Shown here: positions 32,478 to 39,456 of the stretch, piece by piece | Position numbering within the stretch: position 1 is the stretch's first letter | Layout of the letters: each line of letters opens with the position of its first letter | Assembly (NCBI RefSeq): GCF_002914585.1 | Contig: NZ_PDDM01000005.1 | Coordinates: 124,001-188,000 of the forward strand | DNA length: 64,000 nucleotides | Direction: 5' to 3' | DNA from: Pseudanabaena sp. BC1403 | GTDB taxonomy: Bacteria; Cyanobacteriota; Cyanobacteriia; Pseudanabaenales; Pseudanabaenaceae | Notes under the pieces: model-generated | What the model saw: only the letters and a program-made list of their open reading frames with translations | Told to the model about the DNA's origin: nothing | Database searches by the model: none | Position numbers and translations under genes: made by a program

Positions 32478-32636
32478 CTCATGATTAGAATTGCTGGCAC
32501 TCTTCTCAAAACACAGCAAAAATGGCAAGACTTTGCTATGGTTATGTGTATTGGTTATAGCCAAAGACCTGATGCGCATTCACGTCCTTGGGGCGAAAAC
32601 TTTATATCTGTTCAAATCATTCCTAGAGGTAACCTA

Positions 32637-33332
32637 ATGGGTGAAATCACCAGAGATGAGATCCGCGAACGTTTAGGCAATATTGATCAAATTCGCGATA
32701 TCATTTTCGGCGCACATTTGCGCGAATACACAAGTCGGTTAGATAAGGCTGAGTCGGATATTGCAGCTATGCAGCAAGATGTCCGTGATCGCCTTAGCGA
32801 CTTAAAATCAGTTTTAGCAAGTGAGTTACGGGCTGCGGTTGAGTCCATTGATAAGCGACTAAAATCGATTAGTGCATCAACTCAAGAAGAAGCCGCCGAC
32901 CTGCGTCAACAATTTGATCGCATCAACCGCAAGTTTACCAATAGTATTGAAACCCTCGACGAAACTGTTGAAGCTCAACGTGTGGCTTTACGGGATGAAC
33001 TCGCACAAACTAGAGATAATTTACAAAATGATAATCGTGAACTACGAACACTAGTTTTAGAGGAACTAGATCGCCATTTTTCAATTCTTCGGGAAGACAA
33101 GCTTTCTAAAGATGACATGGCGGAGTTGCTATTTGAACTAGGCATGAGACTCAAAGGTTCTGAGTTTGTACCTGAACTGCGCGAGGCAGCTGAAGAAAAG
33201 GTCGAAGAGAAGTACGAGCGAGTCAGTATACTTGATTCGGAGCCAAAATCTGAGCGATCGACTGCATCTAGCCCTGACACTGTAAGTACTTCTGCTAGAA
33301 CCACATCACGATCTACTAAAGCTAAGGCATAG
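32637..33332 (+). CDS. Coiled-coil protein, unknown
   Basis: 231 residues from ATG at 32637, chosen because AGAGG lies 8 bases upstream and the upstream in-frame stretch back to 32481 looks non-coding. Residues about 20-150 are long charged coiled coils (LDKAESDIAAMQQDVRDRL, EEAADLRQQFDRINRKF, ETVEAQRVALRDELAQTRD). A conserved-looking segment follows (DDMAELLFELGMRLKGSEF), then an acidic and Ser/Thr-rich tail. Cytoplasmic. It precedes the membrane protein/GTPase pair on the same strand by about 200 bases, with a palindrome between, so a shared function is possible but unproven. Confidence 0.82.
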   Translation: MGEITRDEIRERLGNIDQIRDIIFGAHLREYTSRLDKAESDIAAMQQDVRDRLSDLKSVLASELRAAVESIDKRLKSISASTQEEAADLRQQFDRINRKFTNSIETLDETVEAQRVALRDELAQTRDNLQNDNRELRTLVLEELDRHFSILREDKLSKDDMAELLFELGMRLKGSEFVPELREAAEEKVEEKYERVSILDSEPKSERSTASSPDTVSTSARTTSRSTKAKA

Positions 33333-33385: not shown

Positions 33386-33450
33386 AAAATTACCCCAACC
33401 CGTAAAGTTGCGCCCCGCAGGGGCGCAACTTTACGGGTTGGGTAATTTTT
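33386..33450. repeat. 65-bp palindrome with one extra base
   Basis: Arms of about 30 bp (AAAAATTACCCCAACCCGTA...) with one unpaired C, closing at CGCAG. It follows the coiled-coil gene by 54 bases and precedes the large membrane protein gene. Confidence 0.9.
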
Positions 33451-33528: not shown

Positions 33529-36327
33529 ATGTCGGAGCGAAAGGGCGATTCTCAAAATAATTCTCTCAGCGACGTTGAGAAGTTTTTGCTCCTGCTCTCT
33601 GATTTAAATATTATTGATTCTGAAAAGCCTAAAACCATCCAGAAACAGCAAAGGATAGATAATTCAAGTCTGTTAAATATTAAAAATAAAGACAATAAAG
33701 ACAATAGTCATGGAGGGATTCAGCCCAGATCTAAATTATTGGAAATCGAACAGAAACTATCGGTTAAACCAAGAAAAAAAACTTCAGACGAAGAAGTTTT
33801 AGATATAGCGCGATCGCCTTCAGTCTATCCTTTCCCTAGTCTGTTAGATGAGCTGCCATTTTTAAGAGATATTCAGCCAGCTAATCTAAATGGGCTTGAT
33901 CAGAATCACGATCAAAATCGATACCATGAAAATTTAAATCGAGCTAATCATAGTGACGATGCAATCTTAGAAAAAATCGAATCTTCAAAAACAGGAGAAA
34001 TAGAGACGGTAAATCTCATCCAAGAGCTTCTGTTGGGTAGTGAAAAGAACCCAATAGCATCGCCACAGATTCCTCAATCAGCATCACTTCCAACTCCTCG
34101 GAAAACACCTCAAGCTATTACTCAATCACCTTCTCAAGCAATTTCTCAGATCCCATCTCCATCTTCTACTCCTTCTATATCCCAATCCCTTTCACCAATC
34201 ACCAATTTAGAAGAATTGACAGAGGATGATGACAAAGCAATTCATATGTTACAGGATATTCTGGTTGTTCCTGAGCTAGAAGATTTGCGAAACTTTAAAA
34301 TTGCGGTTGAGCAAAAGCTGGGAATTGTCGAAAGTCAGGTTAATAATCCTGCAATCATGAATAAAATTGAAGGATTGGAAAGTTTGCTGCAAAATGCTTC
34401 TCGCCGACTTTCAGCAATGGATGATGAACAGAGCAATATCCCCATGGAGATTGACAAGGTTAGCGATCGCGTTGCTCAGTTAGAAAATCAAATTAATGAA
34501 CCAGCAGAATTAGTTCAGCTTTTGTTGCCAATTATTGCTGAGTTGCTCAGCATCAAAGCAGATCAGGCTAGAGAAGAGATGTGTCAGGCGATTACGCCAA
34601 TTATAGCCGAGGTGATTTTTGAGCGATCGCAACTAGATCGAGTGTCAATGAGCCATGCGATCGCTGATCTTTTACCGAATGCGATTAGTGAACAAATTCG
34701 TAATAACCCTGAGCAAATTGCTAAAGCACTTGGACCAGAAGTTGGCGCAGCAATTCGCGAGCAAATTCGACTTGATCGCGATGAAATCGTTGATGCGCTT
34801 GCGCCAGAAATGGGAGCAGCAATTAAGCAACAGATCGTGCTCGAACGTGATGCCATGGTTGACGCGCTCTATCCTGTAATTGGGAATACGATCGCTAAAT
34901 ATTTCGCTGAAGCTATCCGCTCCATCAACCAAAAAGTCGAACAAACATTTAGTGTAGAAGGCGTACAGCGAAAGTTTCGCGCCAAAATGCAAGGTGTTTC
35001 TGAAGCCGAGTTAATCCTCAAAGAATCGGTTCCCTTTGAAATTCAATCCATATTTCTGATCCATAATCTTTCGGGATTAGTAATGATCGACATCCAAAAA
35101 AGTGACCTTGATTCTTTGAGCGATCCTATCGACTCAGATATGCTAGCAGGGATGTTGACGGCAATTCGGAGCTTTGCTAATGAATGTATGTCCAGATCGG
35201 AAAGTACAACGGAACTTGATGCAATTAACTATAGTGGTTCCAAAATATTGCTGGAAGTTGCAGGATATTGCTATCTCGCAGTGATTATTAAGGGAGAACC
35301 TGACGCGGCTTTGGTAAACAAAATTCGCGATGTATTTGGTCGGATTGTGCAAGTTTATGGCGAGGGCTTCAAAGAATTTGATGGCGATCCCAGTACGGTT
35401 CCAATGGAGGCTGAAATTGAACTTAAGAATTTAATGGGATTTGAGCAGGCTAAAGCTTCTAAACAATCACCCAAAGCCTTGCTTTTTATGAGTTTAGCTA
35501 TACTTGCACTGGTTTTTGTGCCCATAGGGATTTTTCAATATCAATCTAATCGCTATCGCCAACTTGAAGCTAAGGTTTTAGAAGCCTTCGCCAGTACGCC
35601 CGAACTTGCCGTTTATCGACTTAATGTTAATGCCGATGGCGATCGCATCAAATTAACAGGTAAATTACCAAATCAATCTTTACGCGATCGTGCCCACCAA
35701 GTAGCGATCGCATCTACAAAATCAGAAATAGCCAACAGTAAAATCAACAATAATATTTATACCGTCAATATACCTCCTGATCCCGAACTCGTAGCGCTCG
35801 AAGTCCAGCGCCTTACTAAAGCCCTAAACTATACTCAGGGTGTCAACATCCAGAGCCAATTTAAAGATGGACAAGTAACAATTACAGGACAGATTGAACA
35901 GCCTAGAATGATCCCAAAAATCACACAGGCATTCACTAAAATCGCGGGTATTACTATGGTTAGTAATGCTGCCACGATATTGACCCCAAAGTTATCAACG
36001 CGAATCTACTTTCCTCTGTGGGTGACAACCCTAGAACCAACCGACACCGAAAAGCTAATAGAAGTTCAGGCTTTTCTAGACCTTTATCCAGATTATAATA
36101 TTAAGGTTCTTGTCAAAAATGATAATATTGGCGATCCCGCCATCAATTATCAACTTGGAATAAAACGCGCCCAAACAGTTCGAGCTGCACTATTACAAAG
36201 AGGTGTAAATGCTAAACGTATCCATATTTCTGGGATAATAGATATATCTATACAGCAGCCCTCTGACCAAATGTTAAGGTGGGTAGAGTTTCAACCGATT
36301 TTAAAGCCAATGTCCGTATCTAATTAA
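33529..36327 (+). CDS. Multidomain envelope protein: helical repeats, roadblock-like region, TM, BON-like repeats, OmpA-like end
   Basis: 932 residues from ATG at 33529 (a TTG at 33478 is open). Residues 1-172 are polar, 173-225 a Pro/Ser/Gln-rich linker, and 240-490 largely helical with 23-residue repeats (AKALGPEVGAAIREQIRLD, VDALAPEMGAAIKQQIVLE). Residues about 496-620 (ESVPFEIQSIFLIHNLSGLVM to IRDVFGRIVQVYGEGF) look like a roadblock/longin-type module. One TM helix follows (about 650-670), then two BON-like repeats (VNADGDRIKLTGKLPN, FKDGQVTITGQIEQP) and an OmpA-like C-terminus (IYFPLWVTTLEP, NYQLGIKRAQTVRAALLQRGV). So the N-terminus should be cytoplasmic and the C-terminus periplasmic, able to hold peptidoglycan. 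A small GTPase starts at the very next base. Confidence 0.85.
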   Translation: MSERKGDSQNNSLSDVEKFLLLLSDLNIIDSEKPKTIQKQQRIDNSSLLNIKNKDNKDNSHGGIQPRSKLLEIEQKLSVKPRKKTSDEEVLDIARSPSVYPFPSLLDELPFLRDIQPANLNGLDQNHDQNRYHENLNRANHSDDAILEKIESSKTGEIETVNLIQELLLGSEKNPIASPQIPQSASLPTPRKTPQAITQSPSQAISQIPSPSSTPSISQSLSPITNLEELTEDDDKAIHMLQDILVVPELEDLRNFKIAVEQKLGIVESQVNNPAIMNKIEGLESLLQNASRRLSAMDDEQSNIPMEIDKVSDRVAQLENQINEPAELVQLLLPIIAELLSIKADQAREEMCQAITPIIAEVIFERSQLDRVSMSHAIADLLPNAISEQIRNNPEQIAKALGPEVGAAIREQIRLDRDEIVDALAPEMGAAIKQQIVLERDAMVDALYPVIGNTIAKYFAEAIRSINQKVEQTFSVEGVQRKFRAKMQGVSEAELILKESVPFEIQSIFLIHNLSGLVMIDIQKSDLDSLSDPIDSDMLAGMLTAIRSFANECMSRSESTTELDAINYSGSKILLEVAGYCYLAVIIKGEPDAALVNKIRDVFGRIVQVYGEGFKEFDGDPSTVPMEAEIELKNLMGFEQAKASKQSPKALLFMSLAILALVFVPIGIFQYQSNRYRQLEAKVLEAFASTPELAVYRLNVNADGDRIKLTGKLPNQSLRDRAHQVAIASTKSEIANSKINNNIYTVNIPPDPELVALEVQRLTKALNYTQGVNIQSQFKDGQVTITGQIEQPRMIPKITQAFTKIAGITMVSNAATILTPKLSTRIYFPLWVTTLEPTDTEKLIEVQAFLDLYPDYNIKVLVKNDNIGDPAINYQLGIKRAQTVRAALLQRGVNAKRIHISGIIDISIQQPSDQMLRWVEFQPILKPMSVSN

Positions 36328-36882
36328 ATGCATTCTCCTGCCAAAGTAATTTCTCAGAAAATATGTCTTATCGGTGATTTTGGTGTTGGCAAAACCAGCC
36401 TAATCCGCCAGTTTGTTGATCGTCAATTTAGTGATAAATACTTGTCAACAGTTGGCGTAAAGATCTCTCGCAAATTAGTGTCTATTAACAGCTTGTCAGA
36501 TGATACTCCAGTAGAATTAAAACAATTACAATTAATTGTCTGGGATATTGAAGGGAGTACAAGATTTAAGGCGATCGCTCCTAGCTATTTGCAGGGTGCC
36601 AAGGGAGCGTTAATTGTTGGAGATGTGACAAGGCAATCCAGTATGCAAAGCCTCAAAGATCATGTGCAACTTTTTCAATCTATTAATCCTACATCTAGTT
36701 CAATTGTTGTCTTAAATAAAGTTGATTTAATAGAAAGTAATGCAAGAGAAACCCTATTGAAATCTATCCCACCTGAATTTATGAACCTTAACATATCTAT
36801 ACATACCACATCAGCTAAAACAGGTGAAGGGGTTGATGAGACATTCCAAAAACTAGCACGGCAAATGCTAATGATAGAATGA
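36328..36882 (+). CDS. Rab/Ras-like small GTPase without the catalytic Gln
   Basis: 184 residues. G1 P-loop GDFGVGKTS (16-24), G2 Thr41 in STVGVKI, G3 WDIEGSTRF (72-80), G4 LNKVDL (129-134) and G5 TSAKTG (161-166) are all present, so GTP binding is secure. In G3 the normal DxAGQE reads DIEGST: the catalytic Gln is Ser77 and the Ala is Glu75. Low intrinsic hydrolysis or a partner-supplied residue is expected from Ras-family knowledge. There is no C-terminal Cys for prenylation. The ATG follows the stop of the OmpA-like gene without a gap, which implies coupled translation and a joint complex. Confidence 0.92.
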   Translation: MHSPAKVISQKICLIGDFGVGKTSLIRQFVDRQFSDKYLSTVGVKISRKLVSINSLSDDTPVELKQLQLIVWDIEGSTRFKAIAPSYLQGAKGALIVGDVTRQSSMQSLKDHVQLFQSINPTSSSIVVLNKVDLIESNARETLLKSIPPEFMNLNISIHTTSAKTGEGVDETFQKLARQMLMIE

Positions 36883-36978
36883 GTTCATCATTACAAGCTT
36901 CCAAACATTAGCAAAACTATAAGCGAAAATATTCTAAGTAAACAACAACTCAGTATCCTTATTATGCGAGGATCTGCC

Positions 36979-39456
36979 ATGAAATATTCACAACTCCTCA
37001 AAAAACTTTTTGCTGCTTCAGAGCGATCATTCATTATGGTTGATCGCCAGTTTATAATCACTGATAGGTCGTTCGGAGCCGAAAGATTTTCTGAATATCC
37101 TTATGATTCCTTGTTAAATAGAGATGTTCGTCATGCATTTCCAGAAATAATTGGATTAGAAGAAGCTTTTAATAATATTTGGCTCAACCAACTCACCAGT
37201 TTTGAAATTAAAGGAGTATCCCGTTCTGCGAGTCATCAACAACCTCTCTATTTTAATTTCTATATAATTGGCACAGATGAACTAGAGGAGAAAGACCAAA
37301 ATATCATGATCTGTATTGAAGATGTGACAGATATGATGATTATGTCTCAGGAGTTAATGCAAAGAGCGAATGAGTCTGAGCTACTAGCTAATGCCTTAAT
37401 AAAGTCAAATGAGTATATTGACAAAATTATTTCTGCAGTGGGAGATGCGTTGATTGTCACTGATGATCAAGGCATAATTAAAACTGTAAATCCTGCGACA
37501 ATTAATTTGTTTGGTTATACCCAAGAAGAGCTAGTTGATAGGTCGATCACTTCACTATTTAAATATCCAAACCAACTAGATTTAATTTATCAAAATTATC
37601 TTGAAGCTCAATCAGATAATCAACAATCTTTAGATAGTGATTACTATTTTACAAACATTGAAATATCATGCCTATCAAAAAAGAAAGAAGAAATTTTGAT
37701 AGAATTTTCTTGCTCAAACATACAGAATCAACAAATCGAATATAGTATTGAACCAAATAACTGCTTTGTTTATGTTGGTCGTGATATTACAGGGCTAAAG
37801 CGTAAAGAGCAAGAGTTGTTAACTGCTAGGCAATTTGCCGAGCAATCAGCCAAAGCTAAAAGCATTTTCTTGGCTAATATGAGTCATGAAATTCGTACTC
37901 CCATGAGTGGCGTTTTGGGGATGACTGACCTGTTACTTGGGACATCTCTAGACGACAATCAGAAGGATTTTGTGGAAAATATTCGACTAAGTGGAAATTT
38001 ATTACTTAGTTTAATTAATCGTATTTTGGATTTATCAAAATTAGAAGAAGGGGAGTTGAGATTAGAAAGTTTACCTTTTAATTTAGAACAATCTATAGAA
38101 GAAATTCTTGAGCTTTTTGCACTACAAGCACATAAGCAGGGATTGGAACTAAATGCTTGTTTTGAAGAAGGTTTACCTAATTTTCTAATGGCAGACGCAG
38201 TTCGATTTCGGCAAATTATGGTGAATTTAATTGGCAATGCTATTAAGTTTACAACCGAAGGTGAGATCATTGTGCGAGTTGAACGCGATCGCGACTTTGA
38301 ACTGACCTTGGCAATACAACCTCAAATCTATTTACGTTTTTCCATTATAGATACAGGTATTGGTATAGATCTCGCCAATCAGGACAAACTTTTTAAGCCT
38401 TTTTCGCAAGTTGATACATCTACAAATCGTCATTTTGGGGGGACTGGATTAGGATTAGCGATCAGTCGCCAGTTAGTGGAGTTAATGCAAGGCGAGATAG
38501 GAGTATCTAGTCCTGTCTCAAATGGAAAAGGTACTTGTTTTTGGTTCAGAATTCCTTTTTCTCTCCAGCCAAACCAATCTCTTGAATCTTTGAGTTATGC
38601 TTCACAAGCTTTAAGTAATCGAAATGTTTTAGTAATTGATGCAAATCAACATTCTCGTTATGCAATTCGTTATTACCTCACTAAACTAGGTGCTGAAACT
38701 TATGAAGCATCTAATATGCTTGAAGCGATCGCTTATTTAGAATCAGACAAGCTAGTTGATGTAGCATTAATCGATTGGAGTTTAACTGGTTTTAATGGCT
38801 CTGAATTTGCTAAACAAATTCATGGGAGAGAGAAATTGGCAGACTTACCCCTTATTGCGATGTTGACCGCAAGTCGCCAAGGTGAAATCAAAACATTAAT
38901 TAATCAGGGCTTTAGTGGATATGTGACAAAACCTTTTAAAGAGCAACGACTATTAAAAGCAGTTGGTTTATCTTTGGGAATTGATCTCCCTACTTTTGCG
39001 AGCGATTCTCTTCCTTCTAGCGCAGCGGTTCCCAATCTTCGTCGTAATCCCAAAGATAATAGTGGCTTGAACAAGTTAAAAAACTCAAAAGTTCTATTGG
39101 CAGAAGATAATATTGTCAATCAGAAAGTTATAATGGCATACTTATCACAACTAGGTTGTCAATCAGACTTAGCGGAGAATGGGGAACAGGTATTACAGTT
39201 AATTAAGACTAAAGATTACGACATTGTTTTGATGGATTGTCAGATGCCATTAATGGATGGATATGAGACTACTGAGACCATCCGCCAACTCGAAGCTACT
39301 GCTGAACTATCTAACCATGTCGTGATCATCGCGATGACCGCTAATGCTTTTACAGAAGATCGCGATCGCTGTTTAGCAGTCGGAATGGATGATTTTCTGA
39401 GTAAACCGATCCGCAGGCAACAACTTAAGGAGACTCTTGAAAATTGGATTAGGTAA
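36979..39456 (+). CDS. Hybrid sensor histidine kinase (PAS-PAS-HisKA-HATPase-REC-REC)
   Basis: 825 residues from ATG at 36979 (GAGGA 7 bases upstream); ATG at 36964 would add 5. No membrane segment, so cytoplasmic. Order: PAS-like region (about 10-125), PAS (about 150-270, ISAVGDALIVTDDQGIIKTVNPA), HisKA with FLANMSHEIRTPMSG, HATPase with NAIKFT, DTGIGI and GTGLGLAISRQL, a first receiver (about 550-675) with acceptor Asp in ALIDWSL but DA instead of DD in the acidic pair (VLVIDAN), and a second complete receiver (LLAEDN, VLMDCQMPLMDG, LSKP). No output domain: signalling goes on through a phosphorelay or partners. It follows the GTPase by about 96 bases. Confidence 0.93.
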   Translation: MKYSQLLKKLFAASERSFIMVDRQFIITDRSFGAERFSEYPYDSLLNRDVRHAFPEIIGLEEAFNNIWLNQLTSFEIKGVSRSASHQQPLYFNFYIIGTDELEEKDQNIMICIEDVTDMMIMSQELMQRANESELLANALIKSNEYIDKIISAVGDALIVTDDQGIIKTVNPATINLFGYTQEELVDRSITSLFKYPNQLDLIYQNYLEAQSDNQQSLDSDYYFTNIEISCLSKKKEEILIEFSCSNIQNQQIEYSIEPNNCFVYVGRDITGLKRKEQELLTARQFAEQSAKAKSIFLANMSHEIRTPMSGVLGMTDLLLGTSLDDNQKDFVENIRLSGNLLLSLINRILDLSKLEEGELRLESLPFNLEQSIEEILELFALQAHKQGLELNACFEEGLPNFLMADAVRFRQIMVNLIGNAIKFTTEGEIIVRVERDRDFELTLAIQPQIYLRFSIIDTGIGIDLANQDKLFKPFSQVDTSTNRHFGGTGLGLAISRQLVELMQGEIGVSSPVSNGKGTCFWFRIPFSLQPNQSLESLSYASQALSNRNVLVIDANQHSRYAIRYYLTKLGAETYEASNMLEAIAYLESDKLVDVALIDWSLTGFNGSEFAKQIHGREKLADLPLIAMLTASRQGEIKTLINQGFSGYVTKPFKEQRLLKAVGLSLGIDLPTFASDSLPSSAAVPNLRRNPKDNSGLNKLKNSKVLLAEDNIVNQKVIMAYLSQLGCQSDLAENGEQVLQLIKTKDYDIVLMDCQMPLMDGYETTETIRQLEATAELSNHVVIIAMTANAFTEDRDRCLAVGMDDFLSKPIRRQQLKETLENWIR

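Follow-up and report, generated by a model that had tools for sequence, protein, structure and literature searches.

What does a Rab-like small GTPase do beside a membrane-spanning protein with an OmpA-like end in a cyanobacterium? The question is raised by a gene pair in a 64,000-nucleotide stretch of the Pseudanabaena sp. BC1403 genome (contig NZ_PDDM01000005.1, positions 124,001–188,000; hereafter the window), in which the ATG of a 184-residue GTPase gene (36328) directly abuts the TAA (36325–36327) of a gene for a 932-residue membrane protein, as the preliminary description of the locus had noted. The same immediate stop/ATG junction is found at 10 other loci (L037–L041, L043, L077 and L079–L081), all from genomes of the same genus. 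Gene content and motifs place this locus among the Group 1 Rup signalling units, and the domain at residues 504–640 of its membrane protein, as modelled, likely has a longin fold.

Group 1 Rup GTPases were defined in 2014 by Wuichet and Sogaard-Andersen as lacking the G3 glutamine (PMC4316618; this and the other articles are cited from the available portions of their text). That article gives their neighbourhood as a coiled-coil protein, a protein in which a domain of unknown function is followed by a transmembrane helix and an OmpA domain, and an output protein, either a kinase or a diguanylate cyclase/phosphodiesterase, with an invariant glutamine in its N-terminal region (PMC4316618). Rup are presented as the prokaryotic GTPases closest to Rab, Ras and Rho (PMC4316618) or to Rab, Rho, Ras and Ran (PMC4915359); as of 2014 none had been characterised, the system being predicted with no experiment, and 0 Rup genes in the 2014 table were coupled to MglB (PMC4316618). 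Each Rup feature looked for was found in the window, and the locus is therefore a member of an already described system; the earlier suggestion of an undescribed one is ruled out by the 2014 description, as given in the available part of that article (PMC4316618).

The 184-residue protein is of Ras/Rab type (Pfam Ras, E 1.1e-28), in line with its initial identification, and its best PDB match is Rab-31 (E 3.8e-21), followed by RABF2b and Rab14, with Rab, Ypt or Sec4 names on nearly all of the 60 PDB matches listed. As a single domain of 184 residues it fits the Group 1 Rup size (<240 residues). Its G3 motif is WDIEGSTRF, with serine at what we take, following Ras residue numbering, to be the position of the catalytic glutamine; this position is variable in subfamily A of the family and is glutamate in 17/17 GTPases of the diverged subfamily B.

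The preliminary description had placed a roadblock/longin region at residues 490–625 of the membrane protein, with structure prediction set beforehand as the check. An alignment of residues 480–645 (A1; 57 sequences, comprising the window protein and 56 of 65 rows, nine of which were dropped as near-identical, and including the degenerate L100) yielded an AlphaFold2 model with a mean predicted local distance difference test (pLDDT) value of 82.1 and a predicted template modelling (pTM) score of 0.77. The modelled order is helix, two strands, helix, three strands, two helices, the helix ahead of the first strand being of lower confidence (block pLDDT 65, residues 11–20), and the order characteristic of longins (two strands, helix, three strands, two C-terminal helices) is present. 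Longins are described as differing from roadblocks in the absence of the N-terminal helix and the presence of an extra C-terminal one (PMC10933270). Foldseek searches of the PDB with the model returned mostly roadblock, longin and adaptor-sigma entries among the best 50, with 15 matches at E <=0.001. Longins headed the ranking by VIA-align 2, with Sec22b at Z 13.6 (root mean square deviation 2.7, 126 residues aligned to the predicted model), Ykt6 and Vamp7 both at Z 13.1 and a TRAPP subunit at Z 12.8, and Fuzzy-Inturned, Mon1-Ccz1 and a Lokiarchaeal longin were also among the matches listed; beyond their printed titles, the entries are presumably the proteins that we name here. The longin matches span model residues 25–161, corresponding to protein residues 504–640. 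At the level of sequence profiles, Pfam Fuz_longin_1 (PF19036; FUZ, MON1, HPS1) matched 5/57 family members (best E 3.5e-5), the best score, 24.5 bits in a homologue, lying below the curated cut-off of 26.1, and the alignments were roughly collinear, with a similar offset in the three members inspected. A phmmer search of PDB sequences with the domain of the homologue L069 returned nothing.

The roadblock half of the early assignment fared less well than the longin half. An MglA/MglB-type pair, in which the domain would be a diverged MglB roadblock serving as a GTPase-activating protein, has in its favour the shared superfamily, the roadblock structures that Foldseek also lists (MglB 3t12 at E 2.2e-3) and Pfam Robl_LC7 matches in 2/57 family members (best E 0.08), but we regard it as improbable. 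In hhalign comparison with 20 cyanobacterial Robl_LC7 sequences (alignment A2, 20 of 30 loci used) the domain gave a 45-column alignment at a probability of 0.6 per cent. The GTPase is of Rab type, and the roadblock genes of the genome sit elsewhere, beside another GTPase match. Taken with longin matches that extend over the whole fold from first strand to last helix, the hhalign result led us to reject a relative of MglB, and by these comparisons the longin-like domain is not an MglB homologue. No MglB chains occurred among the best 50 structural matches of VIA-align 2, which extend down to Z 9.7 and are uninformative on MglB likeness. Both Robl_LC7 matches of the genome are on contig C22 and the Rup locus is on C5, so there is no MglB coupling here. 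On C22 (G000:C22:32996-35175; L005, L102, L103) a GTPase match lies beside the two Robl_LC7 matches, which score identically and are separated by ~1.36 kb; this is probably an MglA/MglB locus whose roadblock gene has been duplicated. Equal-scoring Robl_LC7 pairs also occur in G088 and G077. Two further loci of the same genome (L001 and L003, on G000:C19 and C1) hold large open frames of 942 and 1183 residues with Roc-type GTPase matches.

Conservation of the pair was assessed in 291 genomes drawn from the class Cyanobacteriia. The membrane protein was found in 67 genomes (E 1e-8; 33/130 genera) and the GTPase likewise in 67 (E 1e-15; 32/130 genera), with both present in 64, the membrane protein alone in three (G003, periplasmic part only; G028; G086), the GTPase alone in three (G061, G251, G254) and neither in 221; these co-occurrence counts are not independent, because at least 25 of the 291 genomes share the genus of the window, and the Fisher value computed from them takes no account of this kinship. 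The two genes proved to be neighbours elsewhere, as the preliminary description had required: in 56/64 genomes holding both, the GTPase match begins on the same strand as the membrane protein gene and <1.5 kb downstream of it. Among 47 fetched stretches of subfamily A (L037–L083), some of which stop at contig ends, a GTPase match is present in 36 and coiled-coil protein, membrane protein and GTPase occur together in 29. In subfamily B, membrane protein and GTPase are side by side in 17 of 18 stretches (L084–L101; L100, from G028, which is 376 residues long, degenerate and lacks a GTPase, was not counted), and 13 of the 17 have a coiled-coil match. The same unit is annotated on a Mesorhizobium plasmid as a hypothetical protein, an OmpA family protein, a Rab family GTPase and an adenylate/guanylate cyclase domain protein. 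A junction in a single genome would by itself be compatible with chance proximity of genes that share no function, but with gene order kept across cyanobacterial families and in Mesorhizobium we consider this explanation extremely improbable. At four loci (L045, L047, L070, L071) an open reading frame of 559–602 residues lies beside the membrane protein gene, downstream in the first two and upstream in the others, and the genomes concerned have a GTPase match on another contig.

The remainder of the membrane protein agrees with its first description as having one transmembrane helix, BON-like repeats and an OmpA-like end. Pfam identified BON in two stretches (E 8.4e-11) and, weakly, OmpA (E 3.1e-6; 27.9 bits, cut-off 27.2), and a single strong hydrophobic segment begins at residue 651 (mean hydropathy 2.74 over 19 residues). 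The Group 1 Rup arrangement of a domain, a transmembrane helix and an OmpA domain is present in this protein; in subfamily B the OmpA domain was detected in the member scanned, L096. The aspartate and arginine of the OmpA motif serve wall binding; Arg880 occurs in 66/66 aligned rows and Asp865 in 49/66. Judged from these residues, wall binding by the OmpA domain is plausible here and not uniform across the family.

The hybrid kinase and coiled-coil protein flanking the pair had been suggested as possible parts of its system, and both gene types do recur beside it. The coiled-coil protein, labelled as such without a dedicated prediction program, is 283 residues long as listed, and most homologues start near the internal methionine of MGEITRDEI, residue 53; a motif, [IV][RK][DE][IL][IL]xG, was read by eye in an alignment of 47 sequences. 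Output proteins identified by Pfam comprise histidine kinases, a GGDEF-EAL protein and class III cyclases, and in subfamily B some of the following open reading frames resemble kinase or GGDEF-EAL outputs by eye; nothing found points to the role in polarity or motility that had been proposed. Residues 6–145 of the output protein in the window had no Pfam match, and among ten N-terminal regions or short outputs none scored above the Pfam cut-off, with one weak PAS match (E 0.19). This N-terminal region was modelled as a PAS fold (alignment A3, 33 rows, five and then one more having been left out of 39; pLDDT 84.8, pTM 0.74), with matches to PAS and LOV structures at Z up to 10.8, and contains an FPExxGxE motif. 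In the helix that follows, Gln133 is present in 37/39 rows and Gln129 in 36/39, presumably the invariant glutamine in the figure of the 2014 article (PMC4316618). A profile of the region found 38 proteins in 31/47 subfamily-A stretches.

Considering these results together, we think it rather probable that the locus encodes a Rup unit in which a wall-anchored longin protein controls or holds the Rab-like GTPase, which in turn acts on a PAS-bearing output. The starting points are computed (the genes, their co-occurrence, order and neighbourhood, the predicted folds and the missing G3 glutamine), and we infer contact between longin domain and GTPase and an exchange activity. The membrane protein would cross the inner membrane once, placing BON and OmpA on peptidoglycan in the periplasm and the longin domain in the cytoplasm, where the latter would bind the GTPase and either set its nucleotide state (loading) or scaffold and hold it at the membrane. 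This step is modelled by analogy on the longin domains of eukaryotic Rab regulators; Mon1-Ccz1, Fuzzy-Inturned and HPS1 have Rab guanine nucleotide exchange factor functions. Wall binding may modulate the action of the longin domain on the GTPase, and the coiled-coil protein may be a scaffold. The loaded GTPase would engage the PAS-fold N-terminus of the output, here the hybrid histidine kinase, and gate kinase, cyclic di-GMP or cyclase output, and the near-invariant glutamines after the PAS fold may supply in trans the catalytic residue missing from the GTPase, an idea put forward by the 2014 authors (PMC4316618).

Rather unlikely, in our estimation, is a division of labour in which the longin-fold domain serves dimerisation or scaffolding away from the GTPase, whose partner would be the coiled-coil protein or the PAS domain, with the operon doing no more than bringing one pathway together. 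The membrane protein and GTPase genes co-occur almost perfectly and lie close together, which speaks against it, as do the several matched longins taken from complexes with Rab or Ypt GTPases (TRAPP, Mon1-Ccz1, Fuzzy-Inturned), but the longin fold is also that of clathrin-adaptor sigma and SNARE domains, both among the structure matches, and two ~1200-residue paralogues of the membrane protein (L068 in G123 and L069 in G277) have no GTPase match in the surrounding fetched stretch. These paralogues, of which L069 has the best Fuz_longin_1 score in the family, also count against control of the GTPase by a wall-anchored longin protein, and several further observations weigh in the same direction. 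The window protein has no Pfam longin match, nor any Pfam match in its roadblock/longin-like region; a PDB sequence search with the longin alignment found no longin and only unrelated matches at E 0.84 or worse; and the scan of the 291 genomes with Fuz_longin_1 gave matches at E 0.01 in 4, with ~3 expected by chance, the best of the four being a family member and three of the four having internal stops. The GTPase match is on another contig in 7/64 genomes (one of them, G200, carries an adjacent pair of subfamily B as well) and 3.5 kb away in 1/64 (G211), glutamine is retained in the G3 motif of 6/37 GTPases, the strict OmpA motif pattern matched 22/66 proteins, and the PAS-type N-terminus went undetected by profile in 16/47 subfamily-A stretches and in all 18 of L084–L101.

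Coordinates of the features are collected in Table 1. Between the coiled-coil and membrane protein genes (33400–33436) lies a near-perfect palindrome, a dispersed repeat found at 10 distinct places in the genome at <=3 mismatches, which has the look of a REP-type element inside the Rup unit.

Table 1. Features of the Rup locus in the window, with the basis of each assignment.
Feature	Position	Strand	Basis or remark
Coiled-coil protein	32481..33332	+	283 residues as listed; precedes the pair in both subfamilies and in Mesorhizobium
932-residue longin/transmembrane/BON/OmpA protein	33529..36327	+	Open reading frame, Pfam, homologues
Modelled residues 480–645; predicted longin-fold core, residues 504–640	34966..35463	+	Alignment, AlphaFold2, structure matches
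Probable transmembrane helix, residues 651–669	35479..35535	+	Best 19-residue hydrophobic window
BON domain, best stretch, residues 678–726	35560..35706	+	Pfam
OmpA-like domain, residues 833–902 (Asp865 and Arg880 at OmpA motif positions)	36025..36234	+	Pfam, alignment
Rab-like small GTPase, 184 residues	36328..36882	+	Pfam, PDB matches, G3 motif
Hybrid histidine kinase (PAS, HisKA, HATPase, two receiver domains)	36964..39456	+	Pfam
Output-protein N-terminal PAS-fold domain (residues 6–145) and next helix with near-invariant Gln129 and Gln133	36979..37398	+	Predicted fold, alignment

The longin and PAS assignments appear to be new: in the open-licence literature, judged by titles and the beginnings of abstracts, no paper was found that makes either assignment or that treats a bacterial longin, or a longin together with OmpA, cyanobacteria or Rup. 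The predicted longin-fold domain of the conserved membrane partner provides a concrete candidate regulator for Rup that is testable by ordinary biochemistry, and the arrangement suggests a possible route for the cell wall to control kinase, cyclic di-GMP and cyclic-nucleotide signalling. A longin beside a Rab-like GTPase also bears on the origin of the eukaryotic Rab-longin partnership, and its presence in bacteria would sharpen the question raised by the proposed derivation of longins from prokaryotic roadblock domains (PMC3521125). A bolder reading, which we hold to be doubtful, takes the domain for a true bacterial longin devoted to a Rab-like GTPase; the Rup membrane protein would then be a wall-anchored exchange factor or platform resembling Mon1, Fuz or HPS1, so that the Rab-longin pairing would have existed in bacteria, inside the group of prokaryotic GTPases reported as closest to Rab, Ras and Rho, and could have entered, or been shared with, eukaryotes.

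Among known systems, the locus shares with Group 1 Rup as published a GTPase without a conserved G3 glutamine, a coiled-coil protein, a protein with the domain-transmembrane helix-OmpA layout and a glutamine-bearing output N-terminus, and differs in the predicted longin domain, the predicted PAS fold of the output N-terminus, the addition of class III cyclases to the output types and the division into two subfamilies with different G3 motifs. With the longin Rab-regulator complexes (Mon1-Ccz1, Fuzzy-Inturned, TRAPP) it has in common the predicted longin fold and a Rab-like GTPase as candidate partner, but the longin domain here belongs to a membrane protein of bacteria that also carries BON and OmpA, its sequence score falls below the Pfam cut-off and its partner is assigned by prediction. 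The MglA/MglB system likewise places a GTPase beside a domain of the roadblock/longin superfamily, whereas here profile similarity to cyanobacterial Robl_LC7 is lacking, the GTPase resembles Rab and the domain sits within a putatively wall-binding protein. The actinobacterial conservon (CvnA-D) also combines a kinase, a small GTPase and a roadblock-superfamily protein in one cluster and, going by its description in the available part of PMC4316618 alone, differs in gene families and layout.

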